A DNA stretch of 64,000 nucleotides from NCBI RefSeq assembly GCF_002563715.1, contig NZ_PDJJ01000001.1:1488001-1552000 (forward strand), given 5' to 3'. The DNA is from Isoptericola jiangsuensis (GTDB lineage Bacteria; Actinomycetota; Actinomycetes; Actinomycetales; Cellulomonadaceae). Below the pieces are notes generated by a model. It ran no database searches. It had not been told where the DNA came from and worked only from the letters and a program-made list of their open reading frames with translations. Below, piece by piece: positions 5,291-41,224 of the stretch (position 1 is the stretch's first letter; each line of letters starts with the position of its first letter). The position numbers and the translations under genes are program-made.

Positions 5291-6465
5291 CCCTCGATGA
5301 GGTCGTCCCAGCCCACCTCCGGCTCGCGGACCACACGCGGTGCGCGACCCAGGAGCCGGGTGAGCAGGACGTCGGCCTCCAGGATCGCCAGCGGCTGGCC
5401 GGGACACTTGTGGGCGCCGTCGCCGAAGGTGAGTCCTGCGGCGTTGACGCCCCGCGGCAGGGTGCGGCCGGGGCACAGGTCCAGGCCGTCCTCGCCCGTC
5501 GCCCGCGGGTCCGCGTTCGCGGGACGCACGCACACGTCGACGAGGTCGCCCGCCTCGATCGTCCACGAGTCCTCACCGTCGGTGACGTCGATCGGTTCCT
5601 GCGCGCGCCGGTACAGGTGCCCCACGACCGGTTCGAGCCGGATGATCTCGGTCAGGATCGCGAAGCGTTCCTGCTCCCCGGCGACGAGGTACCGCTCGCG
5701 CAGGACGTCGTCGCGCAGCAGGTGCCACGCCGCCATCGTGACGAACTCGCGCGTCGTCACCATCCCGGCCGTGCCGTACGTGACGCACTCGACGAGGATG
5801 TCGACGTCCGTGTACCCCTCGTCGATCAGATGGCTGATGACGTCCTCGCGCCGCTCCCGTCGGCGCTCGCGGATCGCCGGACGCACGTCCGCCAGGAAGA
5901 AGCGCCCCACGGGCAGGAGCCCGTTCCACGCCGCCAGCATCCACTGGCGGGGCGTGCGCCCCAGGTCACGGCGGGTGATGTCGAACGGCGGCTGGCGGAA
6001 GAAGCTGACCAGCCGACGGGACATGCGCGGCACGGACGACTCCGTCAGGCCGACCACCTCGGCGGTGACCTCGACCGTGTAGTGCAGCGCGAGCTCGTCC
6101 AGCGTGAGCCGGCCTCCGGGCCCGGTCCGGCCGAGCAGGCGGTCCGCGCACTCCTCCATCTGCGCGGTGTAGCGCTCGGCGACGACCACGGGGGCGAAGA
6201 ACCGGGCGACCTTGCTGCGCTGCTCGTCGTGCAGCGGCCCGTCGGACACGAGGATCGGGTGGTGCTTGAGCCGGCCCCGGGGGATGGCCTCCGCGGTGAA
6301 CCCGGCCTGCGTCGTCGCGTGCCGCGCCCGCAGCACCTGGCGCGCGGTCTCGAGCGAACGGACGCGCCACACGGTGCTCACCCCGGCGCGGCCGTCGGCG
6401 CCCTGCCGCTCCACGCGCGGGGTGCTCGGTTCGCCCGGTCGCACCGCCCTCCGCCGCCCGGTCAT
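5233..6465 (-). CDS. Cytochrome P450 of the aromatic-carotenoid cluster
   Basis: A 410-residue class I bacterial P450. The haem loop reads FGDGAHKCPG with the axial thiolate at Cys354. The I-helix oxygen-activation motif reads GTAGMVTTRE and the K-helix ExxR is EIIRLEP. The start overlaps the crtU stop by four bases (ATGA), so it is co-translated with crtU. In Brevibacterium linens a P450 gene near the crt genes is linked to 3,3'-dihydroxyisorenieratene. Hydroxylation of an isorenieratene-type ring is therefore the best guess here. Redox partners are not encoded nearby. Confidence 0.88.
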   Translation of the reverse strand: MTGRRRAVRPGEPSTPRVERQGADGRAGVSTVWRVRSLETARQVLRARHATTQAGFTAEAIPRGRLKHHPILVSDGPLHDEQRSKVARFFAPVVVAERYTAQMEECADRLLGRTGPGGRLTLDELALHYTVEVTAEVVGLTESSVPRMSRRLVSFFRQPPFDITRRDLGRTPRQWMLAAWNGLLPVGRFFLADVRPAIRERRRERREDVISHLIDEGYTDVDILVECVTYGTAGMVTTREFVTMAAWHLLRDDVLRERYLVAGEQERFAILTEIIRLEPVVGHLYRRAQEPIDVTDGEDSWTIEAGDLVDVCVRPANADPRATGEDGLDLCPGRTLPRGVNAAGLTFGDGAHKCPGQPLAILEADVLLTRLLGRAPRVVREPEVGWDDLIEGYTLRGLVLELPADDPGSR

Positions 6466-8132
6466 CGCCGTGCGGGGGAGAGGCGGTGGCGCACGGCCCG
6501 GGCGGTGCGTGCGACGGCGGCGCCCGCCCCCGACAGGTCCGGCCGGCGTCGCAGCACGCCCTGCAGCGGCACGGTCCAGACGTCCTCCCCGCGCACGCCC
6601 CAGCCCTGCAGCAGGTGGTTGGCGGCCAGCACGCCGGTCACTGCGGCGCGCTCCATGAGGGCGATCGGCCAGTCGACCCGCAGACCGTCGCCGGCCAGCG
6701 CCAGCCCCGGGTACGGGGTGTCGACGGTCAGCCGGTCACGCCACGGCCCGGTGCCGACCAGGCCGCAGTCGTCCTCGACGAGCAGCTCGTCGTGGAGGGC
6801 CAGCAGCCCGCGCGTCTCGGGGTACACCTCGTGCAGCGCGGCCAGGAGGCGGGCCCGGAGCCGGTCGGTGTCGAGCCCGCGCGGCCCGTCGCCGGCGAGG
6901 TCGGGGTCGCGCGCGGGGTCCGCCGCATAGGCGTGCAGCTCCACGACCGAGCCGCCGTGCTCGCGCGCCCAGTCCGCCGCCCCCTGCTCGAAGCGCTCCA
7001 GGACGGTGACGTTGTCGAGCAGGTCGTAGCCGCTGGTGCCGAGGAACGCCTCGCGCTCCGGGGCGACCTGGCCGTCCAGCCACAGGCGGAGCACGGCGAA
7101 CGGCGGGGCGTTGCGACCCGCGGCGAGGCGCCGGTGCCAGTCCGCGCGCTCGGGGGTGCCGGGCCCGTCGACCGACGCCCCGGCGAGCGGCGCGAGCAGC
7201 TCCCGGGTGACGCGAGGGTCGGCGGCGACCACGACCGCGTCCGCGGCGATCTCGCCGGACGCGGTGCGCACCCGCCACGACCCGTCCTCGTCCTGCCCGA
7301 GCGACTCCACCCGGGTGCCCGTGCGGACGTCGGCACCCTGCTCGCCGAGGTAGCGGCGCAGCGGCGCCCACAGGGCGGTGTCGTAGTCGTCGTCGGGGAC
7401 GTCGAACAGCAGACCCTCCGACGACCCCGCGAAGTACGTGTGAAACATGCCGACCAGCTCGCCGGCACCGAACTCGGTCGGATGGGCGAAGAACGACCGG
7501 GCGAAGACCTCCAGCGCGAGGTGCCGCGCCCCCTCGGGGAAGCGCAGCCGGTCGAGGAAGTCCTGCGCGGACTCGCCGTCGTAGCGCTCGTGGCTCGCCG
7601 GGTAGGACACCGACACGAGCTCGATCGCGCTGGGCAGGTGCACCGACGGCAGCGCGGACAGCGGGAACGTGGGGCTGCGCACGACGAACGCGGCGAGGTT
7701 GGCGGGCGGGGTCAGCGGCAGCGACGCGAAGCTGTCGGTGAGCCCGTCGCCGCGACGCAGCGGGTAGTCGGGGACCGGCACCAGGTGGGAGAGCGTCGGG
7801 TCGGCGCGGCGCAGCAGCGCGCGCAGCGTGTAGTACTGCCGGAAGAACGCGTGGAAGCCGCGGCTCATCGTCCGGGGGACGTCGCCGGCGTCCGGCGTGC
7901 CGTCCGGGCCGTCGGCGAGCGGCCACGCGCGGACCCGGCCGCCGAGCTGGTCGCACGCCTCGAGCAGCGTCACGCGGACGCCGCGCTCGGCCAGGATCGT
8001 CGCCGCGCCCAGGCCGGCGATGCCGCCCCCGACGACGACCACGTGCCGGTCGTCGGTGGGGTGCTCGGTACCGGGCGTGCCGGGGTGGAGGACGGCGCCG
8101 CGGTCGCGACCGGGCGGCACGGGCCGGCTCAT
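6462..8132 (-). CDS. crtU: Carotenoid desaturase/methyltransferase (isorenieratene synthase type)
   Basis: CrtU turns beta-ionone rings into aromatic phi rings by desaturation and methyl migration. The 556-residue FAD protein has VVVVGGGIAGLGAA at about residues 31-44. It carries the CrtU hallmark MSRGFHAFFRQYYTLR followed by LPLTPPANLAAFVVRSPTF. The C-terminal FAD segment is LALAGDGLRVDWPIALMERAAVTG. The start overlaps the crtT-like stop by four bases and the stop overlaps the P450 start by four. The three genes thus form a tightly coupled operon. A general CrtI-like desaturase is the alternative, but the SRGFHAFF block favours CrtU. Confidence 0.88.
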   Translation of the reverse strand: MSRPVPPGRDRGAVLHPGTPGTEHPTDDRHVVVVGGGIAGLGAATILAERGVRVTLLEACDQLGGRVRAWPLADGPDGTPDAGDVPRTMSRGFHAFFRQYYTLRALLRRADPTLSHLVPVPDYPLRRGDGLTDSFASLPLTPPANLAAFVVRSPTFPLSALPSVHLPSAIELVSVSYPASHERYDGESAQDFLDRLRFPEGARHLALEVFARSFFAHPTEFGAGELVGMFHTYFAGSSEGLLFDVPDDDYDTALWAPLRRYLGEQGADVRTGTRVESLGQDEDGSWRVRTASGEIAADAVVVAADPRVTRELLAPLAGASVDGPGTPERADWHRRLAAGRNAPPFAVLRLWLDGQVAPEREAFLGTSGYDLLDNVTVLERFEQGAADWAREHGGSVVELHAYAADPARDPDLAGDGPRGLDTDRLRARLLAALHEVYPETRGLLALHDELLVEDDCGLVGTGPWRDRLTVDTPYPGLALAGDGLRVDWPIALMERAAVTGVLAANHLLQGWGVRGEDVWTVPLQGVLRRRPDLSGAGAAVARTARAVRHRLSPARR

Positions 8133-8914
8133 GCCGGGTCCGCGTCAGGTCGACGGGCCATCACGGTGTGCAGGATGCCGCGCTGCCATCCGGTGCCGGT
8201 GCGCCACCTGACGTCGGTCAGCCCGGCGCGTTCCAGACGGGCCTCGAGCTGGGTGGTGCTGTCGTTGTCCACGACGCTGCGCCACAGGTAGCGGTAGATC
8301 GCCGGGTTGCCCCGCACGATCACCGACAACGGCATGACGACGCCCCAGCAGACGGCCGTCCAGACCGCCGTGGACACCCGACGACCCTTCACGTGGTAGT
8401 CCTGCAACGCGATCCACCCGCCGGGCCGCACCTGGTCGCGGATCGCCGCCACGACGTCGTCGCGCTGCTCCTCGGGGACGTTGCGCAGGAGGTACGCGGC
8501 GAACGCGCCGTCCGCCTCCGCCCGGCCCTGCTCCCGCGCCACCTTCGGCAGGTCCTGCGCGAAGGCCTGCACGAACCGGACGCCCTCCGGCCAGGGCTTC
8601 GCCTCGGCGTGGCTCAGCATCCCGCCCGACGCGTCGAGCCCGACGACGTCGGCGTCCTCGCCGGCCGCGTCGAGGAGCGCCCGCGTGGACAGGCCCGAGC
8701 CGCACCCCAGGTCCCACAGCACGAGCGGCTCGCCGCCGCCCCGCCGCGGCAGCCGCGAGACCAGGTCGCGCGCCGCGGTGAGCAGCGCACGGTGGTAGCC
8801 CGGGTTGAGGCGGGTCAGGAGGTCGTAGCGATCGGCGGCACGGTCGAACTCGTCGGCGAGCCGTCCTCCTCGCACCTCGACGGGACCGTCGGCAGCGGAG
8901 CGTTTGCGAAGCAC
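8129..8914 (-). CDS. crtT: CrtT-like SAM methyltransferase of the carotenoid cluster
   Basis: A 261-residue class I methyltransferase. Motif I is VLWDLGCGSGLSTRALL, followed by DVVGLDASGGML and later VRPGGWIALQDYH. In Streptomyces griseus a similar gene (crtT) accompanies crtY and crtU, but its necessity for isorenieratene is unclear. The same name is used here on context. The GTG at 8914-8912 was chosen because TAAGGT lies six bases upstream. It is first in the crtT-crtU-P450 operon. Confidence 0.8.
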   Translation of the reverse strand: MLRKRSAADGPVEVRGGRLADEFDRAADRYDLLTRLNPGYHRALLTAARDLVSRLPRRGGGEPLVLWDLGCGSGLSTRALLDAAGEDADVVGLDASGGMLSHAEAKPWPEGVRFVQAFAQDLPKVAREQGRAEADGAFAAYLLRNVPEEQRDDVVAAIRDQVRPGGWIALQDYHVKGRRVSTAVWTAVCWGVVMPLSVIVRGNPAIYRYLWRSVVDNDSTTQLEARLERAGLTDVRWRTGTGWQRGILHTVMARRPDADPA

Positions 8915-8920
8915 GCCCTT

Positions 8921-8926
8921 ACCTTA
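8921..8926 (-). promoter_or_regulatory. -10 element of the crtT-crtU-P450 operon
   Basis: TAAGGT on the minus strand ends six bases before the crtT GTG, the spacing of a leaderless transcript. An AAGGG between them is too close to the GTG to serve as a ribosome site. No clear -35 was seen. Confidence 0.5.
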
Positions 8927-9062
8927 GGGGGCGGCGCGCAGATTGCACCGGATCGCACGCCCGACGACGCGGCACGCGCGCGGGCACCGATGAGGATCGT
9001 CGCCGACAGTGGTCTCATCACCCGTCCGCACCGACGCGTCGCACCCGAGGGAGAGCCGCGAG

Positions 9063-9632
9063 ATGAGACCGCTGCGCTATTCGATCAACGTCACGCTCGA
9101 CGGCTGCTGCCACCACGAGGCCGGCGTCCCGCCCGACGCGGAGTCGATGGACTTCTGGACCGCCGAGACGCGAGGCGCCGGCGCCCTGCTCTTCGGTCGC
9201 GTCACCTACCAGATGATGGAGTCCGCGTGGCGGCGGCCCCAGACCGGCCCGTGGCCCGACTGGATGCAGGAGTGGGACACCCCCTTCGCCGAGGCCATCG
9301 ACCAGCAGAAGAAGTACGTCGTGTCCAGCACGCTCGACGACGTCGACTGGAACGCCGAGCTGCTGCGCGGCGACCTGGGGGAGGCCGTCCAGCGGCTCAA
9401 GGAGGAACCGGGCGAGTTCCTGTCCGTCGGCGGGGTGACCCTGCCCCGGGCGCTCGCCGACCTCGGGCTCATCGACGAGTACGTGTTCCTCGTGCAGCCG
9501 GTCCTGGCCGGGCACGGACCGACGCTGCTCGCCGGGCTGCGCGAGCGGATCCGGCTCGAGCTGGTGGACCGCCAGGAGTTCCGCTCCGGGACGGTCGCGC
9601 TGCGCTACCGCCCCGCACCCGTTGCCGGCTGA
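9063..9632 (+). CDS. Dihydrofolate reductase/RibD C-terminal family protein
   Basis: A 189-residue protein of the RibD_C/DHFR-like fold. Visible family segments are RYSINVTLDGC at the start, ALLFGRVTYQMME, KYVVSSTLDDVDW, FLSVGGVTLPRALADLGLIDEY and VLAGHGPTLL. Such stand-alone proteins probably bind NADPH but their substrates are unknown, so no specific reaction is claimed. The ATG at 9063 is chosen for the GGGAGAG ribosome site about eight bases upstream. The frame is open to 9009 but without family similarity. It is divergent from crtT. Confidence 0.85.
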   Translation: MRPLRYSINVTLDGCCHHEAGVPPDAESMDFWTAETRGAGALLFGRVTYQMMESAWRRPQTGPWPDWMQEWDTPFAEAIDQQKKYVVSSTLDDVDWNAELLRGDLGEAVQRLKEEPGEFLSVGGVTLPRALADLGLIDEYVFLVQPVLAGHGPTLLAGLRERIRLELVDRQEFRSGTVALRYRPAPVAG

Positions 9633-9653
9633 CCGGTACGGGCCCGCGACCTC

Positions 9654-10325
9654 TCAGCGCGGGTCGTCCGCGCGTGTGGCGCCGTCGTCCGGGCCCACCA
9701 GGTCGGTCCAGCCGACCAGCTCGATCCCCACGAGGTTCTGGTGCGCGTCGAGATCGAGGACGACCGTCCCGCGCAGACGCTCGTCGTCGACGACGACCTG
9801 CAGCGGTGCGCGGCTCCTGTCGCGCGGACGGAGCCCGATGTACGCGGCGTCCGCACCGCCGTCGTAGGCGAACCGCAGGCGCCGGCGGGCGCTGACGTGG
9901 GTGAACGCCGCGCTGACGGCCGTCCGGGCGGCCCGCCGCGCCGCCGCCAGGCGACCCCGCGGACTCCGGTCGTGCTGCTCGGTCAGGAAGTCGAGCAGGA
10001 TCTCGATGCCGTCGAGCCGGAACTCCTCGGGGAGCGCGTCGACGGCGGCGGCCGCGGCTTCCGAGGCGGTGGCGTCGTCCGCGGTCGTGGTGGCGCCGAC
10101 GAGCATCCCCGACGGGAACGGCTCGCCCGCGGTACCGACGGAGCGGAGCTCGCGAGCCTCGACGTCCTCCCAGACGGCGTCCATCTGCTCCATCAGCACG
10201 GTCGCGACCCGGTCCCGCTGCGCGTGCCCGGCCGCGGAGAGCAGCCGGCGCAGTCCCGGTGCGATCACGGACCCGGGGTCCGGCAGCGCGACGGTGTGCG
10301 TCCCGCCCTCGGCGTCGATCCACAT
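9654..10325 (-). CDS. Uncharacterised protein with C-terminal DUF2283-like domain
   Basis: A 223-residue soluble protein. The last 70 residues (FAYDGGADAAYIGL, then TVVLDLDAHQNLVGIELVG) match the DUF2283 pattern of a Y-D-x-E/G-A-D-x-x-Y-I motif followed by a DLD...VGIE strand pair. The N-terminal 150 residues are Ala-rich and helical and not recognised. Function unknown. It lies convergent to the DHFR-like gene and stands alone. Confidence 0.7.
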   Translation of the reverse strand: MWIDAEGGTHTVALPDPGSVIAPGLRRLLSAAGHAQRDRVATVLMEQMDAVWEDVEARELRSVGTAGEPFPSGMLVGATTTADDATASEAAAAAVDALPEEFRLDGIEILLDFLTEQHDRSPRGRLAAARRAARTAVSAAFTHVSARRRLRFAYDGGADAAYIGLRPRDRSRAPLQVVVDDERLRGTVVLDLDAHQNLVGIELVGWTDLVGPDDGATRADDPR

Positions 10326-10462
10326 GGTGGCGGCCCCTCCCTGGCGACCGGCGGCCGCGTCGAGCGGTGATCGTAGCGGTCGGCCACGTGCCGGGGACGC
10401 CGCGCAGCGAAAGGGACGTGCTCCGCCGCGCGCTCGACCGGCGCCGCTGGTAGACCGGCCCC

Positions 10463-11461
10463 ATGCCGGACTCCCCCCAGAGCGTCGAGGAACCCAGGAG
10501 CGTCCGCGTCGTGGCGTCGGAGCACGGCGGGGAGAGCACGCTGACGGTCGTGGTCGCGTTCGTCGCGAACCTGCTGATCGCGATCGCGAAGTCGGCGGCG
10601 GCGGTGCTGACGGGGTCGGCGTCGATGCTCGCGGAGGCGGTGCACTCGTGGGCCGACGCGGGCAACGAGGTGTTCCTGCTCGTCGCGGACAAGCGGTCGC
10701 GGCGTCCCGCGGACGCGGACCACCCGATGGGGTTCGGGCGCGAGGCGTACGTGTGGTCGATGTTCGCCGCGATCGGTCTGTTCGCCGTCGGCGCGGGGGT
10801 GTCGGTGGTGCACGGCATCCAGGAGCTGGTGCACCCGGAGCCGGCGGAGAACCTGGGGATCGCGTACGCGGTGCTGGGGGTCGCGTTCGTGCTGGAGGGG
10901 ATCTCGTTCCTCCAGGCGGTCCGGCAGGCGCGCGCGGGGGCGCGGGCGTCCCGGCAGGACGTGCTGGACCACGTGGTGGGCACGTCGGACCCGACGCTGC
11001 GGGCGGTGGTCGCCGAGGACGCGGCCGCTCTGGTCGGGCTCGTCGTCGCGTTCGCGGGGGTGCTGGCCCACCAGCTCACCGGGTCGGCGGTGCCGGACGC
11101 CGTGGGGTCGATCGTCATCGGCGTCCTGCTGGGGGTGGTCGCCGTCGTCCTCATCGACCGCAACCGCCGGTTCCTCGTGGGGGAGGTGAAGCGTCCCGAG
11201 GTGCGGGACGCCGCGCTGCGCGCACTGCTCGCGCTGCCGGACGTCGACCGGGTCACCTACCTGCGCCTGGAGTTCGTGGGACCGCGCTCGGTGTACCTGG
11301 TGGCGGCGGTGGACCTCACGGGCGACGACGTCGAGTCGTCGGTGGCGCTCCGCCTCGACGTGATCGAGCGCCACGTGGTGGCGCACCCGGCGGTGGCGGG
11401 GGCGGTGCTGACGGTGTCGGCACCGGGCGAACCTGCGCTGAGCCCCTCGTCGCCGTCGTGA
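10463..11461 (+). CDS. Cation diffusion facilitator transporter
   Basis: A 332-residue metal:H+ antiporter of the CDF family. The metal-site signature HSWADAGNEVFLL (HxxxD) follows helix 2, and the family loop DHPMGFGREAYVWSMFAA precedes helix 3. About six transmembrane segments end near residue 235, and a cytoplasmic ferredoxin-like domain follows (residues 240-320). Zn, Fe or Mn are possible substrates and the sequence does not decide. It sits alone, divergent from the DUF2283 gene. Confidence 0.9.
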   Translation: MPDSPQSVEEPRSVRVVASEHGGESTLTVVVAFVANLLIAIAKSAAAVLTGSASMLAEAVHSWADAGNEVFLLVADKRSRRPADADHPMGFGREAYVWSMFAAIGLFAVGAGVSVVHGIQELVHPEPAENLGIAYAVLGVAFVLEGISFLQAVRQARAGARASRQDVLDHVVGTSDPTLRAVVAEDAAALVGLVVAFAGVLAHQLTGSAVPDAVGSIVIGVLLGVVAVVLIDRNRRFLVGEVKRPEVRDAALRALLALPDVDRVTYLRLEFVGPRSVYLVAAVDLTGDDVESSVALRLDVIERHVVAHPAVAGAVLTVSAPGEPALSPSSPS

Positions 11462-37007: not shown

Positions 37008-38074
37008 GGGCGCAGCGGGGTGTGGTCCGCCGTGACCCGCTCGCCGCCGCGCACCGGGCCGGGCGGGGTGCCGCCACCCCACGGGTCGTCGCCGAGCGCC
37101 TCACGGCCGTGCGGCGTCGTCCAGCCGGACAGGTCCGGCCCGGCCGGCACGATCCCGGTGGGGTTGATGTCGCGGTGCACCACGTAGTAGTGCTCCTTGA
37201 TCTGCGCGAAGTCGACGGTGTCGCCGAACCCGGGGAGCTGGAACAGGTCACGGGCGTACGCCCACAGCACCGGCATCTCGGTGAGCTTGTTCCGGTTGCA
37301 CTTGAAGTGCCCGTGGTAGACGGCGTCGAACCGCACCAGGGTGGTGAACAGTCGCACGTCGGCCTCGGTGATCGACGACCCCATGAGGAACCGGCGGTCC
37401 GCGAGACGGTCCTCCAGCCGGTCGAGGGCGTCGAAGAGCCGGACGTAGGCGGCGTCGTACGCCTCCTGCGACCCGGCGAACCCGCACCGGTACACGCCGT
37501 TGTTGACCTCGGTGAAGACGCGCCGCATGACGGCGTCCATCTCGGCCCGCTCGTCGGGGTCCGCGGGGAGCAGCCGGGGCGCGCCGGGGCGCTGGTGCTC
37601 CGTCCACTGCGTCGACAGGTCGAGCGTCATCTGCGCGAAGTCGTTCGTGACGACCGCGCCGTCGCGCGTGTCGACGATCGCGGGCACGGTGATGCCGCGC
37701 GGGTAGTCGGGGTCGCGGCGGAAGTACGCCTCCTGGATCCGTTCCATCCCCAGCACCGGGTCCTTGCCGCCCGGGTCGAGGTCGAACGTCCAGCTGCGCT
37801 CGTCGTGCGTCGGTCCCGCGAGGCCCAAGCTGATCGCGTCCTCCAGGCCGAGGAGCCGGCGCACGATGATCGCGCGGTTCGCCCACGGGCAGGCGCGCGC
37901 CGCGACCAGCCGGTACCGCCCCGCCTCCACCGGGTACCCGTCCTCGCCGTCCGCGGTGATGCGCGTCGTGATGTACCGCTGGTCGCGCACGTACTCCTGG
38001 CCCTCGACCGTGTACGTCCCGCCGCGCGCGTGCTCGGGACGCTCGGTCGCGGCGTCGGCCCGCCCGCCGCTCAC
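37004..38074 (-). CDS. Glutathionyl-hydroquinone-reductase-family protein
   Basis: A 356-residue omega-class GST-like protein of the YqjG/ECM4 family. The catalytic cysteine is in ARACPWANRAII near residue 60. Family segments include TFDLDPGGKDPVLGMERI, ITVPAIVDT, VVTNDFAQMTLDL, NNGVYRCGFA and the helical ITEADVRLFTTLVRFDAVY. It reduces thiol adducts of quinones. Actinobacteria usually use mycothiol, so the adduct is probably a mycothiol one (inference). The GTG start overlaps the HhH-GPD stop by four bases. Confidence 0.9.
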   Translation of the reverse strand: MSGGRADAATERPEHARGGTYTVEGQEYVRDQRYITTRITADGEDGYPVEAGRYRLVAARACPWANRAIIVRRLLGLEDAISLGLAGPTHDERSWTFDLDPGGKDPVLGMERIQEAYFRRDPDYPRGITVPAIVDTRDGAVVTNDFAQMTLDLSTQWTEHQRPGAPRLLPADPDERAEMDAVMRRVFTEVNNGVYRCGFAGSQEAYDAAYVRLFDALDRLEDRLADRRFLMGSSITEADVRLFTTLVRFDAVYHGHFKCNRNKLTEMPVLWAYARDLFQLPGFGDTVDFAQIKEHYYVVHRDINPTGIVPAGPDLSGWTTPHGREALGDDPWGGGTPPGPVRGGERVTADHTPLRP

Positions 38075-38664
38075 CGGTCGGCCTTCGCGGCGGCCTTGGC
38101 GGCCTTCTTGAACGCCCGGACCTCCTGGAGGGACTCCGCGCTGGTGACGTCCGCGATGGACCGGCGCGACCCCTCGTCGCCGTAGTGGCCCGCGGCCTCG
38201 CGCCAGCCGGCCGGCTCCACCCCGCGCTGCTTGCCCAGCAGCGCCAGGAAGATCTGCGCCTTCTGCGCGCCGAACCCCGGCAGCGCGTGGAGGCGCCCCA
38301 GCACCTCGGCGCCCGACGGCGCCCCGCCGGACGATCCCGGGTCCGTCCAGATGCGCGTCACGTCACCGTCGTAGTCGTCGACCACGGCGCGCGCGACCGC
38401 CTGCACGCGACCCGCCATCGACCGGCCGTAGCGGTGGATCGCCGGCGGCGTCGTCGCCATCGTCACGAACTCGTCCGGGTCGGCGTCCGCGATCACCTGC
38501 GGGTCCAGGCTCCCCACCCGGTCACGGATCTTGCGCGGGCCCGCGAACGCGTGCTCCATCGGGTACTGCTGGTCCAGCAGCATGCCGATCAAGAGTGCAA
38601 AGAAGTCGTCCGAGAGTAATTGATCAGTATCCTGATCTCCGGTAATCCAAAGTTTTTCGGTCAT
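38071..38664 (-). CDS. HhH-GPD-type DNA repair-like protein with a replaced 5' end
   Basis: A 197-residue protein of the small HhH-GPD group. The helix-hairpin-helix is LGRLHALPGFGAQKAQIFLALLG and the helical core includes LLIGMLLDQQYPMEHAF. Some relatives lack glycosylase activity, so 'repair-like' is used. The first 73 bases (38592-38664) are AT-richer than the rest and come from the neighbouring island. The native 5' end lies at 41152-41224. Despite the exchange the frame is intact and the N-terminus keeps the family pattern (LWITGDQDTDQLL). AGGAGG ten bases upstream drives translation. Confidence 0.85.
   Translation of the reverse strand: MTEKLWITGDQDTDQLLSDDFFALLIGMLLDQQYPMEHAFAGPRKIRDRVGSLDPQVIADADPDEFVTMATTPPAIHRYGRSMAGRVQAVARAVVDDYDGDVTRIWTDPGSSGGAPSGAEVLGRLHALPGFGAQKAQIFLALLGKQRGVEPAGWREAAGHYGDEGSRRSIADVTSAESLQEVRAFKKAAKAAAKADR
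38567..38591. repeat. 25-bp direct repeat, inner gene copy (attachment-site candidate)
   Basis: This is identical to 41127-41151. It encodes IGMLLDQ in the HhH-GPD gene. It marks the left boundary of the island, where native high-GC sequence meets lower-GC sequence. Confidence 0.85.
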
Positions 38665-38714
38665 GAGATTCTTGCCCTCCTGATCAAGGGGACGATGAGT
38701 TCCGCGGAGGCCGG

Positions 38715-40307
38715 CTAGTCCACGAGGTCATCGAAGATCTCGCTTCGCAGAATGACGCGTCGGATGCTTCGCTTGTCAGCGAAAGGAACAATTCGGTCCG
38801 AGGTGGGCGAGGTGTTTTCCTCACCTTCAACCTCGAAATCGAAAGGCTCCGCCTTCGTGCGCTTTAGGTCGACATAAGTTCCATAGTCGAGCGCGTAAAT
38901 ATTATACCGCTGCCCAGGGTTTTCCTTGTCGCTGTATCCGCGCGAGATGAGGTGAATAAGGCGCAGGTCAAACAGTGACAGGATCATCTTGTTGTCCGCG
39001 TGTTCGCGCGACAGCATGAACATTTTGGTCTGTCGGCTCCCGATCACGTCGGTGATGATGCGATGGAGTGCGGTTCGCTGCCCGTCCGAGAGTGCCGTTG
39101 ACTTGTCGGTCTCGTACCAGTCACGAGCTGCCTCTTCGACAGAGTTTAGGTCGATCTTCTGGCGCCCAGTCGACTTTGCCTTGAAGAATGCCGAACTGAA
39201 GATTCCAAGAAAGTCTCGCACGACACCCTCGCCGGCGCGGACGAGTTCGATAAAGGTCGCCTTCTCGGTAAAGAGGCGAGACCGGAAGGACGTCGCGTCG
39301 CGAACGTTGAAACTCCGAAGCGTGTCCTCGCTCATCCCCGTGACGATGTGGCGAAAGAGTAGCTCGTGAAAGATCTCTACCACGTTGTCAGGGTTGCGTT
39401 CGTAGACGTAGTAGTCATCGAGGTCAAGGTTCGCCTTGATGTCAGGTCCGAGCTCGAATCCGATCGGGTTGCCCTCCCGAGGGAGGGTGAAACGTGAGCG
39501 GTATTCGAGAGAAGCGATCTTGATCGTTACCAGATTGCTCGGGAAGAGGGATCGCTTGATGAATTCCGCGATGAATGGCTGGAGTTCGACGGGGAGTGAT
39601 GTCCACTCGTCGATGAGGATCGTCAAACGGCTGGCTCCGAGGGCGCGAAGGGCCGTCTCGAGACCGTGGTAGATCTCGCTAAATACGAGCGACTGACGGA
39701 GGGCCTCTGTGAACTGCGTCTCGTGAGTCTGTGTTTGGGAATTCGCGTCGTTGGCGCCGATGGAAGCGCCAGGTTTCATTCCCGACATTCCCAATTCGGC
39801 CGTGGTACCCGACGAGTTGCTCTGCTGGTGCGAAGTCAGAATATTGCGTTCGTTGACTTCGGAAGCTTTTCGAGCAATTGTGTCAGCGAAGTCGCTTACC
39901 TCCTCGAGGCCGCTGCCATCCGACTCGGGTGAAGTAACGATGTCGAGAAGTTTGCTTTGGACGTGGGAGAGTAGATCCTTGAACACCGCGACGCAGCGCT
40001 CGGCCAGGGGCTTCTCGGTGTCGAGGAACGTGTGCGCACTGCCCAGGACGCGCACATCCACGTAGATCACGTGCGATCCAGGGCTCTCCTCCAGTTCGGA
40101 ACGCAGGACCTGGAAGACATGGGTCTTACCCGTCCCGCGTCGACCATAAAGGATCTGGTTCGCGTGATTTGCGACCTGTTGGAGGACACCGGTGTCCACG
40201 TAGGTGTCCCGGAGGACATCGAGATCCCCCTGCTTTTCGGACCGGTCGGTAATGTTTGAGACAGCTCGGGCAAGATGCCTGTCCGAGATCAACGACGACT
40301 CGCTCAT
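38715..40307 (-). CDS. Island-borne AAA ATPase (ORC/CDC6-like), putative defence protein
   Basis: A 530-residue P-loop ATPase. Walker A is GRRGTGKT (residues 55-62) and Walker B LTILIDEW (228-235). A polar insert (about 125-195) lies between them. The C-terminal 200 residues are helical and may form a winged-helix part. The layout resembles ORC/CDC6- or STAND-type ATPases found singly in defence islands, but no effector domain is recognised. It follows the XRE gene by 51 bp and has its own AGGAG site. Lower GC and codon use unlike its neighbours point to transfer. Confidence 0.75.
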   Translation of the reverse strand: MSESSLISDRHLARAVSNITDRSEKQGDLDVLRDTYVDTGVLQQVANHANQILYGRRGTGKTHVFQVLRSELEESPGSHVIYVDVRVLGSAHTFLDTEKPLAERCVAVFKDLLSHVQSKLLDIVTSPESDGSGLEEVSDFADTIARKASEVNERNILTSHQQSNSSGTTAELGMSGMKPGASIGANDANSQTQTHETQFTEALRQSLVFSEIYHGLETALRALGASRLTILIDEWTSLPVELQPFIAEFIKRSLFPSNLVTIKIASLEYRSRFTLPREGNPIGFELGPDIKANLDLDDYYVYERNPDNVVEIFHELLFRHIVTGMSEDTLRSFNVRDATSFRSRLFTEKATFIELVRAGEGVVRDFLGIFSSAFFKAKSTGRQKIDLNSVEEAARDWYETDKSTALSDGQRTALHRIITDVIGSRQTKMFMLSREHADNKMILSLFDLRLIHLISRGYSDKENPGQRYNIYALDYGTYVDLKRTKAEPFDFEVEGEENTSPTSDRIVPFADKRSIRRVILRSEIFDDLVD

Positions 40308-40358
40308 GCTGCTCCTGGGTATGAACCGGAATTGTTGGCTGTGTTGTCGGACTATGCG

Positions 40359-40592
40359 TCAGGGGTCGGTCAGTAGGCTCGACGCGGGAACCTCCAGCTC
40401 ATCTGCCAGCGCGTAGAGGCTGCCGACGCTGATGTTCCTCTCTCCGCGTTCGACAGAGCCCACGTAGGTGCGGTGGAGTCCTGCTCGGTGGGCGAGTTCC
40501 TCCTGGGACAGACCGAGCCGGCCGCGCTCGCTGCGCACCCGTCGTCCCAGGTTGTGGAGACGAGCCTGGAGGTGCTCGTCGTAGTTGCCCAT
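40359..40592 (-). CDS. XRE-family repressor of the island
   Basis: A 77-residue single-domain regulator with the helix-turn-helix LSQEELAHRAGLHRTYVGSVERG and a following ISVGSLYALADELEV helix. It is first in an operon with the ATPase. TATACA in its upstream region overlaps one copy of CACTGTA; the other copy overlaps the promoter of the divergent gene. This suggests that it controls both directions and keeps the island silent. Confidence 0.85.
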   Translation of the reverse strand: MGNYDEHLQARLHNLGRRVRSERGRLGLSQEELAHRAGLHRTYVGSVERGERNISVGSLYALADELEVPASSLLTDP

Positions 40593-40612
40593 GACTGGAG
40601 TCTTGGATCGTG

Positions 40613-40667
40613 CACTGTATAAGTCGACAGACTATGAGTAGCATCGGATGCCATGACACTGTAGCGT
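40613..40667. promoter_or_regulatory. Divergent promoters with paired CACTGTA sites
   Basis: CACTGTA occurs at 40613-40619 and 40657-40663 in the same orientation, 44 bp apart. The first abuts the minus-strand -10 region (TATACA), the second overlaps TAGCGT (40662-40667), the -10 of the plus-strand gene. They are candidate operators for the island XRE protein. Confidence 0.45.
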
Positions 40668-40673
40668 GTGGAT

Positions 40674-41096
40674 GTGTGCGGTGTCAGCCATCGGTTCGTG
40701 GAGGCTGACACCAAGGCGGAGGCTGAGGACGCGGTGCGGCGGGCGCTACTCGATGGGATGGACGTCCGGGCGACGGACGCCGGGGTGTCGCTGACGCGTG
40801 CCTACGAGGCTGCGGGACCCCTTCAGCGGAAGAAGCTGCTCGCGAAACTTGACGGACTGACCAACCCGCGTGAACGGCATTCCTCACGGTCCGCGCGGCG
40901 CCGGTTGGAGCGGGAGATCAAGCGGGAAGAGGCGGAGGCCGAGTGGATGGCGGATTCGCTCCGTGGGGCGCCGCCCGTGTCGCAGGACGTCATCGACCTG
41001 CTCGTCCGACAAGAGGAGGTGCGGCACATCGAGGTGAGCCATCTTCGGCTCCACGAGTGGGAGCGGAAGTCTCCGATCCACGGCGAAACGTTCTGA
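40674..41096 (+). CDS. Unknown island gene
   Basis: A roughly 140-residue, highly charged and helical protein (RRALLDGMDVRATDAGVSL, then SARRRLEREIKREEAEAEW). No family was recognised and no catalytic motif is visible. GTG 40674 was chosen because TAGCGT (40662-40667) is six bases upstream; GTG 40668 in the same frame would overlap the promoter. It is divergent from the XRE-ATPase operon and ends 30 bp before the right repeat, so it is the last cargo gene. It could be an accessory to the ATPase or a mobility factor. Confidence 0.6.
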   Translation: MCGVSHRFVEADTKAEAEDAVRRALLDGMDVRATDAGVSLTRAYEAAGPLQRKKLLAKLDGLTNPRERHSSRSARRRLEREIKREEAEAEWMADSLRGAPPVSQDVIDLLVRQEEVRHIEVSHLRLHEWERKSPIHGETF

Positions 41097-41116
41097 CCTG
41101 CGGCGATACCTGTTGG

Positions 41117-41224
41117 CTAACGAGTGTGCTGGTCCAGCAGCATGCCGATCAGCAGGGCGAACGGGTCCTCGTCCAGCAGGCGGTCCGTCTCGACGTCGCC
41201 GGTCATCCACAGCGGAGTGCTCAT
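41117..41224 (-). pseudogene. Displaced native 5' end of the HhH-GPD gene
   Basis: Thirty-five codons that begin MSTPLWMTGDVETDRLL and end LLIGMLLDQHTR then stop. The first 25 residues match those of the intact gene at 38071-38664 at 15 positions, and the next 25 bp are identical. High GC shows it is the native chromosome copy. CAGGAT (41236-41231) six bases before its ATG preserves a leaderless promoter, so a 35-residue peptide might still be made. Confidence 0.85.
41127..41151. repeat. 25-bp direct repeat, outer copy (attachment-site candidate)
   Basis: This is identical to 38567-38591. It marks the right boundary of the island inside the relic of the HhH-GPD gene. Confidence 0.85.

Follow-up and report, generated by a model that had tools for sequence, protein, structure and literature searches.

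A recurrent insertion site in the 5′ coding end of an actinobacterial HhH-GPD gene, occupied by compact inserts that lack a recognised recombinase

Introduction

How can a protein-coding gene receive foreign DNA within its first codons and keep a complete reading frame? The question is raised by a 2.56-kb insert that interrupts an HhH-GPD gene of the TIGR03252 family (38071-38664, minus strand) within its 5′ end, in the 64-kb stretch of Isoptericola jiangsuensis DNA analysed here, which we call the window. The original prediction, made from these letters alone, was that a perfect 25-bp direct repeat encloses lower-GC DNA, that the element brings a diverged, in-frame replacement for the 5′ end of the gene and leaves the native one behind, that no recombinase lies inside, and that this gene family has no known site of the kind. 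We find that the insertion site is real and is a recurrent hotspot with differing cargo. The stretch in the window is probably a compact cassette integrated at an attachment site for site-specific recombination, formed by the 5′ coding part of the HhH-GPD gene, with a recombinase that would have acted in trans or been lost.

A displaced native 5′ end and an empty site

The two copies of the repeat, at 38567-38591 within the gene and at 41127-41151 on the displaced side, are identical over 25 bp and form the sole exact direct 25-mer repeat of the window. GC content is 58.9% from 38592 to 41126, compared with 75.0% and 76.8% in the neighbouring 2.5-kb stretches. Outside the gene-side repeat, the gene begins with an AT-rich replacement 5′ end (38592-38664, minus strand), with AGGAGG just 5′ of the ATG. 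The displaced 5′ end (41152-41224, minus strand) lies 2560 bp upstream of the present one, and its reading frame meets a TAG soon past the junction. The distance from repeat to ATG is 73 nt for both, and the two 73-nt stretches share 40 nucleotides and encode 15 identical residues of 25 (residues counted by eye). In these respects the prediction was accurate. The gene as it stands is chimeric, with a native body and element-borne first 30 codons, and matches TIGR03252 (E 4.8e-87) and PF00730 (E 3.2e-7); judging by conservation, the chimeric protein may still work.

Which 5′ end is native was assessed against six genus members without a detected second copy (L121-L126). The displaced copy is identical to these at 50-62 of 73 nucleotides and the present gene start at 39-47 of 73. 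This marks the displaced copy as native and the in-frame replacement as the diverged one, as proposed. The same nucleotide identity to genus members led us to reject the idea that 41117-41224 is a separate conserved gene.

Comparison with relatives, a check that had been called for, revealed an empty site. The match to a DoxX-like gene starts 103, 124 and 108 bp upstream of the HhH-GPD gene in loci L123, L126 and L051, respectively. At occupied loci it starts beyond the insert, at 1016 bp (884 + 132) in genome G008 and at 2181 bp (2033 + 148) in G001. Empty-site spacing is not uniform, since L124 (863 bp) and L075 (2800 bp) have a distant DoxX-like gene though no second copy was detected. In the closest relative, G003, the match to an FAD monooxygenase gene runs from 1043 bp upstream of the HhH-GPD gene; in the window it runs from 3780 bp upstream, which is 1220 bp from the displaced start. 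The intervening lipoprotein gene of the window has no match in this region of G003, so the two flanks are otherwise not identical.

Recurrence across genomes

Collecting genes of this type with a second partial copy, as the original prediction had also suggested, showed the same site to be used repeatedly and with differing cargo. Within the genus, a protein search found upstream second copies restricted to the N-terminus in 4 of 18 genomes (G000, G001, G008 and G009). The HhH-GPD gene is present in 174 of 221 family genomes, and 11 further genomes with more than one match were re-searched beside the four genus cases. Upstream N-terminal copies were found in G191, G098 (two), G095, G114 (two) and G176; extra matches in the six others were split genes, C-terminal or unrelated. 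A pattern search contributed G059, and at least 10 of the 174 family genomes with the gene are therefore occupied. The order sample holds the gene in 180 of 396 genomes, 152 of these outside the family. Seven genomes with two matches were re-searched there; at least 4 of the 152 are occupied (G424, G546, G470 and G366), and G235, G475 and G539 are not. These counts are lower bounds, with up to 14 and 8 candidates scored per genome. One and the same insert is present in G366 and G424, and insertions also occur in tandem, three genomes holding more than one. The record of G176 shows the same locus near both contig ends (L076, L077), perhaps an assembly overlap, and was counted once.

A fixed breakpoint and shared element ends

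Eighteen displaced copies were compared, 17 from 14 genomes and one from the viral contig L137. In all 18, the native reading extends to the GA of one codon, codon 31, and the following base is variable. The crossover would lie at this GA (38573-38574 and 41133-41134 in the two repeat copies of the window), not at the edge of the 25-bp repeat. A stop codon is present three codons past a conserved Asp/Glu-Gln/His in 13 of the 18 copies and absent there from the other five (L137, L139, L141 and the second copies of L128 and L138).

The comparison of the 18 copies also yielded an element-end motif with the consensus CGYTRRCCA at +12 from the GA (CGTTAGCCA in the window; 41114-41122, minus strand). 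The motif is exact in 7 of the 18 and matches at 8-9 of 9 positions in 10. Scores are 1-3 of 9 on the 14 gene sides; away from the +12 offset, the same 60 nt reach 5-7 of 9 at best. A second conserved end block, TATCRCYGCAGSTCA (41094-41109, minus strand), is common to 7 of 13 aligned right ends. Ends are shared between inserts with different cargo. By eye, the ends of L118, L119 and L120 resemble motif variants one base out of register, and the motif is unmatched in the same five copies that lack the stop codon.

A composite pattern with at most one mismatch has 8 occurrences among 220 family genomes, spread over 7 of them and every one upstream of the HhH-GPD gene; in a class sample of 256 genomes it was found in that of the window alone. 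Two mismatches gave 25 places in 23 of 220 genomes, and this search was set aside: a reversed-pattern control also matched often, and the pattern misses G001, G009 and one G098 copy. Two mismatches are carried by 17 of the 25 places, and 2 of those 17 (G008 and the second G114 copy) lie at the gene by position. An off-site pattern match in G065 was inspected and is not a stub. No weight was placed on a mirrored arm motif considered in L138.

Replacement exons

The gene-side exons of occupied loci contain a Phe-Phe pair in 6 of 14 cases (the window, L119, L120, L129, L130 and L206). The pair is absent from all 18 displaced exons and from all 80 distinct exons taken from loci where no second copy was detected, a set from which four rows had been removed as occupied ahead of the count. 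The 80 unoccupied exons have Pro-Phe (48), His-Phe (11), Ala-Phe (10), Asp-Phe (7), Met-Phe (3) or Pro-Val (1) instead. Fisher's test gives 4e-6 for the enrichment, uncorrected for shared descent. Between G001, an Isoptericola, and G059, from another genus of the family, gene-side exons are 82% identical, compared with 60% for native exons and 71% for gene bodies, which indicates that exons have moved between genera.

Synonymous-site constraint on the Phe-Phe exons was considered and found weak: third-position identity is 0.37 over codons 2-18 and 0.76 over codons 20-24, and the displaced exons give 0.62 and 0.81 by the same measure. The native stub matched no phages and five plasmid records, one annotated as an HhH-GPD gene, and the G001 exon matched neither plasmids nor phages. 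Four patterns searched in viral contigs gave 2, 1 (one of the same two), 0 and 0 stretches. Locus L016 of G004, where no second copy was detected, has an exon with Met-Phe and GCACTC codons typical of replacement exons and is possibly a former insertion site.

Genes of the window insert and recombinases at the site

The window insert is packed nearly full by three coding sequences. A 530-aa P-loop ATPase of ORC-CDC6-like type, the probable cargo, points at the HhH-GPD gene (38715-40307, minus strand; PF24389, E 8.3e-13) and also matches NF047389 (E 1e-9, under that family's cut-off). It is accompanied by a 77-aa XRE-type regulator (40359-40592, minus strand; PF01381, E 6.2e-14) and a 142-aa orphan (40668-41096, plus strand) that matched no family. 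Family profile searches of these three recognised no recombinase or transfer family, which bears out the prediction. The orphan occurs in 3 of 198 relatives and, among the compared loci, is confined to inserts at this site; tblastn finds relatives in L120, L129, L128 and L118, interrupted or partial in L120, L128 and L118. We rejected it as a hidden recombinase, given that it has no family, was not found in several inserts and is interrupted or partial in others. A structure model of the orphan was unusable (pLDDT 60.7, pTM 0.30).

The claim that this gene family has no known site of the kind was not supported. Published descriptions place the attB of the serine integrase of mycobacteriophage Bxz2 inside Msmeg_5156, a "putative DNA glycosylase" gene (PMC9262239, PMC2884959), and the viral contig L137, which carries a related integrase, is joined to exactly the gene studied here. 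L137 is flanked by the re-formed HhH-GPD gene (196-11) and a displaced 5′ end (11377-11294), and encodes a 520-aa serine recombinase (PF00239, PF07508) whose ATG lies 29 nt from the GA. Mycobacteriophage integrases, among them those of Dixon, Astro and Methuselah, are 65.6-69.7% identical to this protein, and a search of viral contigs for its relatives found only the protein itself.

A second serine recombinase, of 512 aa, lies about 37 nt from the GA in locus L138 of G546, within a mobilizable element (5967-10573) that also has Rep_OBD and NikA-like genes. The element cuts the HhH-GPD gene near codon 30 and does not restore the start, the gene beginning around codon 29. Two stubs are present upstream of the gene with a DUF3021 protein between them, which suggests that a cassette had already rebuilt the gene when the element came in. 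The closest relative of this integrase in the family, in G037, is not near the HhH-GPD gene. In another viral contig, L136 (7969-8268), the HhH-GPD gene is joined in frame to about 28 extra residues, and the junction repeats codons 32-45 of the gene.

Origin of the inserts

We favor integration of a cassette by site-specific recombination. An element whose end encodes the first 30 codons of the gene would recombine at the GA of codon 31 or within a very short distance of it. Through the crossover the body of the resident gene would gain its upstream region, its ribosome-binding site and its first 30 codons from the element, with the native 5′ end left beside the element's other end, and selection would keep elements that rebuild the gene. 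Because the cassette has no recognisable recombinase, the enzyme would be supplied in trans by a phage or integrative element that uses the site, or would since have been lost; it may have been a serine recombinase. The best label is a recombinase-less cassette resembling a cis-mobilizable element (CIME), which a putative enzyme acting in trans would have inserted.

Several observations weigh against this reading. Eight of the 18 displaced copies score below 8 of 9 on the end motif. The two ends of the locus are 97% identical to each other in L118 and 92% in L127, so not every insert brought a diverged exon. The element ends of L137 and L138 differ from those of the cassettes, the target being shared and the end motif not. 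Serine-recombinase domains are no commoner in occupied genomes (6 of 14) than in chosen unoccupied ones (8 of 14), and none of the scanned open reading frames of the compact inserts, a subset of the total, was recognised as a recombinase. Neither excision nor a circular form was seen. As to cargo, the sole PADLOC match of the window ATPase is weak (mad8, E 0.0018).

The motif-poor ends, together with the finding of no helper enzyme, make a broader proposal only tentative: that Actinobacteria harbour a family of defence cassettes, mostly of one to three genes and without a recombinase, that move with a borrowed one. Each cassette would carry a "mobile exon" that doubles as a recombination arm and as the first 30 codons of a host repair-type gene, and a coding sequence would thereby become an integron-like docking site for immunity genes.

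The inserts could instead be decayed elements, formerly full phages or mobilizable elements in which deletion left a few genes between intact attachment sites, and immobile today. L137 and L138 show that recombinase-bearing elements use the site, the orphan gene is interrupted or partial at three loci, and the small inserts of 884 bp, 820-832 bp and about 490 bp resemble remnants. However, the sharing of ends between different single-gene cargoes and the tight packing of the window insert argue for compact units, and the scanned reading frames contained no recognised recombinase fragments; we regard decay as a plausible but lesser explanation. An origin of the second 5′ end by homologous or illegitimate recombination or partial gene duplication without any site-specific step, would agree with the nearly identical copies in L118 and L127. 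It is very improbable given a single breakpoint in 14 genomes of several families, an end motif at a fixed offset, replacement exons foreign by composition and descent, and cargo between the copies.

If recombination was site-specific, the enzyme might have been a dusA-like tyrosine recombinase rather than a serine recombinase. Tyrosine integrases associated with dusA are reported to replace the 5′ end of a protein gene (PMC4482086), published accounts have serine elements disrupt their targets (PMC5704250), and the 25-bp repeat exceeds the 4-bp common core reported for Bxz2 (PMC9262239, PMC2884959). Yet both recombinase-bearing elements at the site, L137 and L138, are of the serine type, as is the reported Bxz2 site, and no tyrosine recombinase was seen here, though no systematic search for one was made. 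We consider a tyrosine enzyme unlikely.

Comparison with known systems

Genomic islands at dusA provide a close parallel to the outcome: there the target's 5′ end is reportedly exchanged for the island's own sequence (Farrugia et al. 2015, PMC4482086). Both these islands and the window insert have a single entry point within the 5′ end of a protein gene and supply a new 5′ end. The tyrosine integrase is described as the one universal feature of dusA islands (PMC4482086), whereas the compact inserts have none recognised and their target is the HhH-GPD gene in Actinobacteria.

The site also resembles that of Bxz2. The likeness lies in a target that published descriptions call a putative DNA glycosylase and that may belong to TIGR03252, and in the L137 integrase, which is 65.6% identical to that of Methuselah, a phage listed under Microwolfvirus Bxz2. 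Bxz2-type elements have a serine integrase beside the junction, as does L137, but the window insert has none, and restoration of the gene is not mentioned in the published passages on Bxz2 (PMC9262239, PMC2884959). Serine-recombinase elements are described as disrupting their targets, whereas the elements here, one of them with a serine recombinase, rebuild the start of a coding target.

CIMEs are described as decayed integrative and conjugative elements or integrative and mobilizable elements, and their tandem accretion is described as well (PMC5704250). The inserts resemble them in keeping attachment sites, lacking recombination genes and standing in tandem at one site; in the window, both junctions are kept at one breakpoint around the ATPase, XRE and orphan genes, with no recombination or transfer genes. 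They differ in that compact units share ends despite different cargo, and no ancestor with both a recombinase and cassette-type ends was found among the compared elements.

Integron gene cassettes are small, carry mostly one or few genes, enter one site, sometimes in tandem, and have no recombinase of their own. The cassettes studied here share these traits, but their docking site is a coding sequence that gets rebuilt. Literature searches, covering few subscription papers and no preprints, brought up no paper on 5′-end replacement in this gene family. While 5′-end replacement itself was already known, the new feature is a set of cassettes that restore the 5′ end and in which no recombinase was recognised, with defence genes as cargo in some. 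They mark a protein-coding docking site in Actinobacteria by an upstream GMLLDQ stub, CGYTRRCCA and a Phe-Phe exon, and recombination borrowed in trans becomes testable at this site.

Cargo

Insert cargo varies between genomes. The ORC-CDC6-like ATPase is present in the window and in G009, where it is 90% identical. Its distant homologues (<60% identity) are on 24 plasmids, 22 of them from Burkholderia. The G001 insert encodes a 579-aa AIPR protein named AbiU by PADLOC (E 2.3e-115). Two cassettes are present in G098, one with a TIR protein (CAP12/PCTIR, E 2.7e-13) and the other with a 311-aa protein lacking a family. The AbiU and TIR matches support defence as a class of cargo, not the role of the window ATPase itself, which by association may be an anti-phage defence gene. 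Two cargo proteins thus match known defence families and several match none, and the signature of the site could serve to mine new defence genes.

Proteins of 254, 188 and 190 aa are encoded in G095, the last related to the 142-aa orphan, and none is above the Pfam cut-off. Neither a 499-aa P-loop-like protein in G114 nor a 354-aa protein in G059 exceeds it. The insert of G191 (L127, 3419-15808) is 12.4 kb in length and encodes RHS- and SpvB-type proteins.

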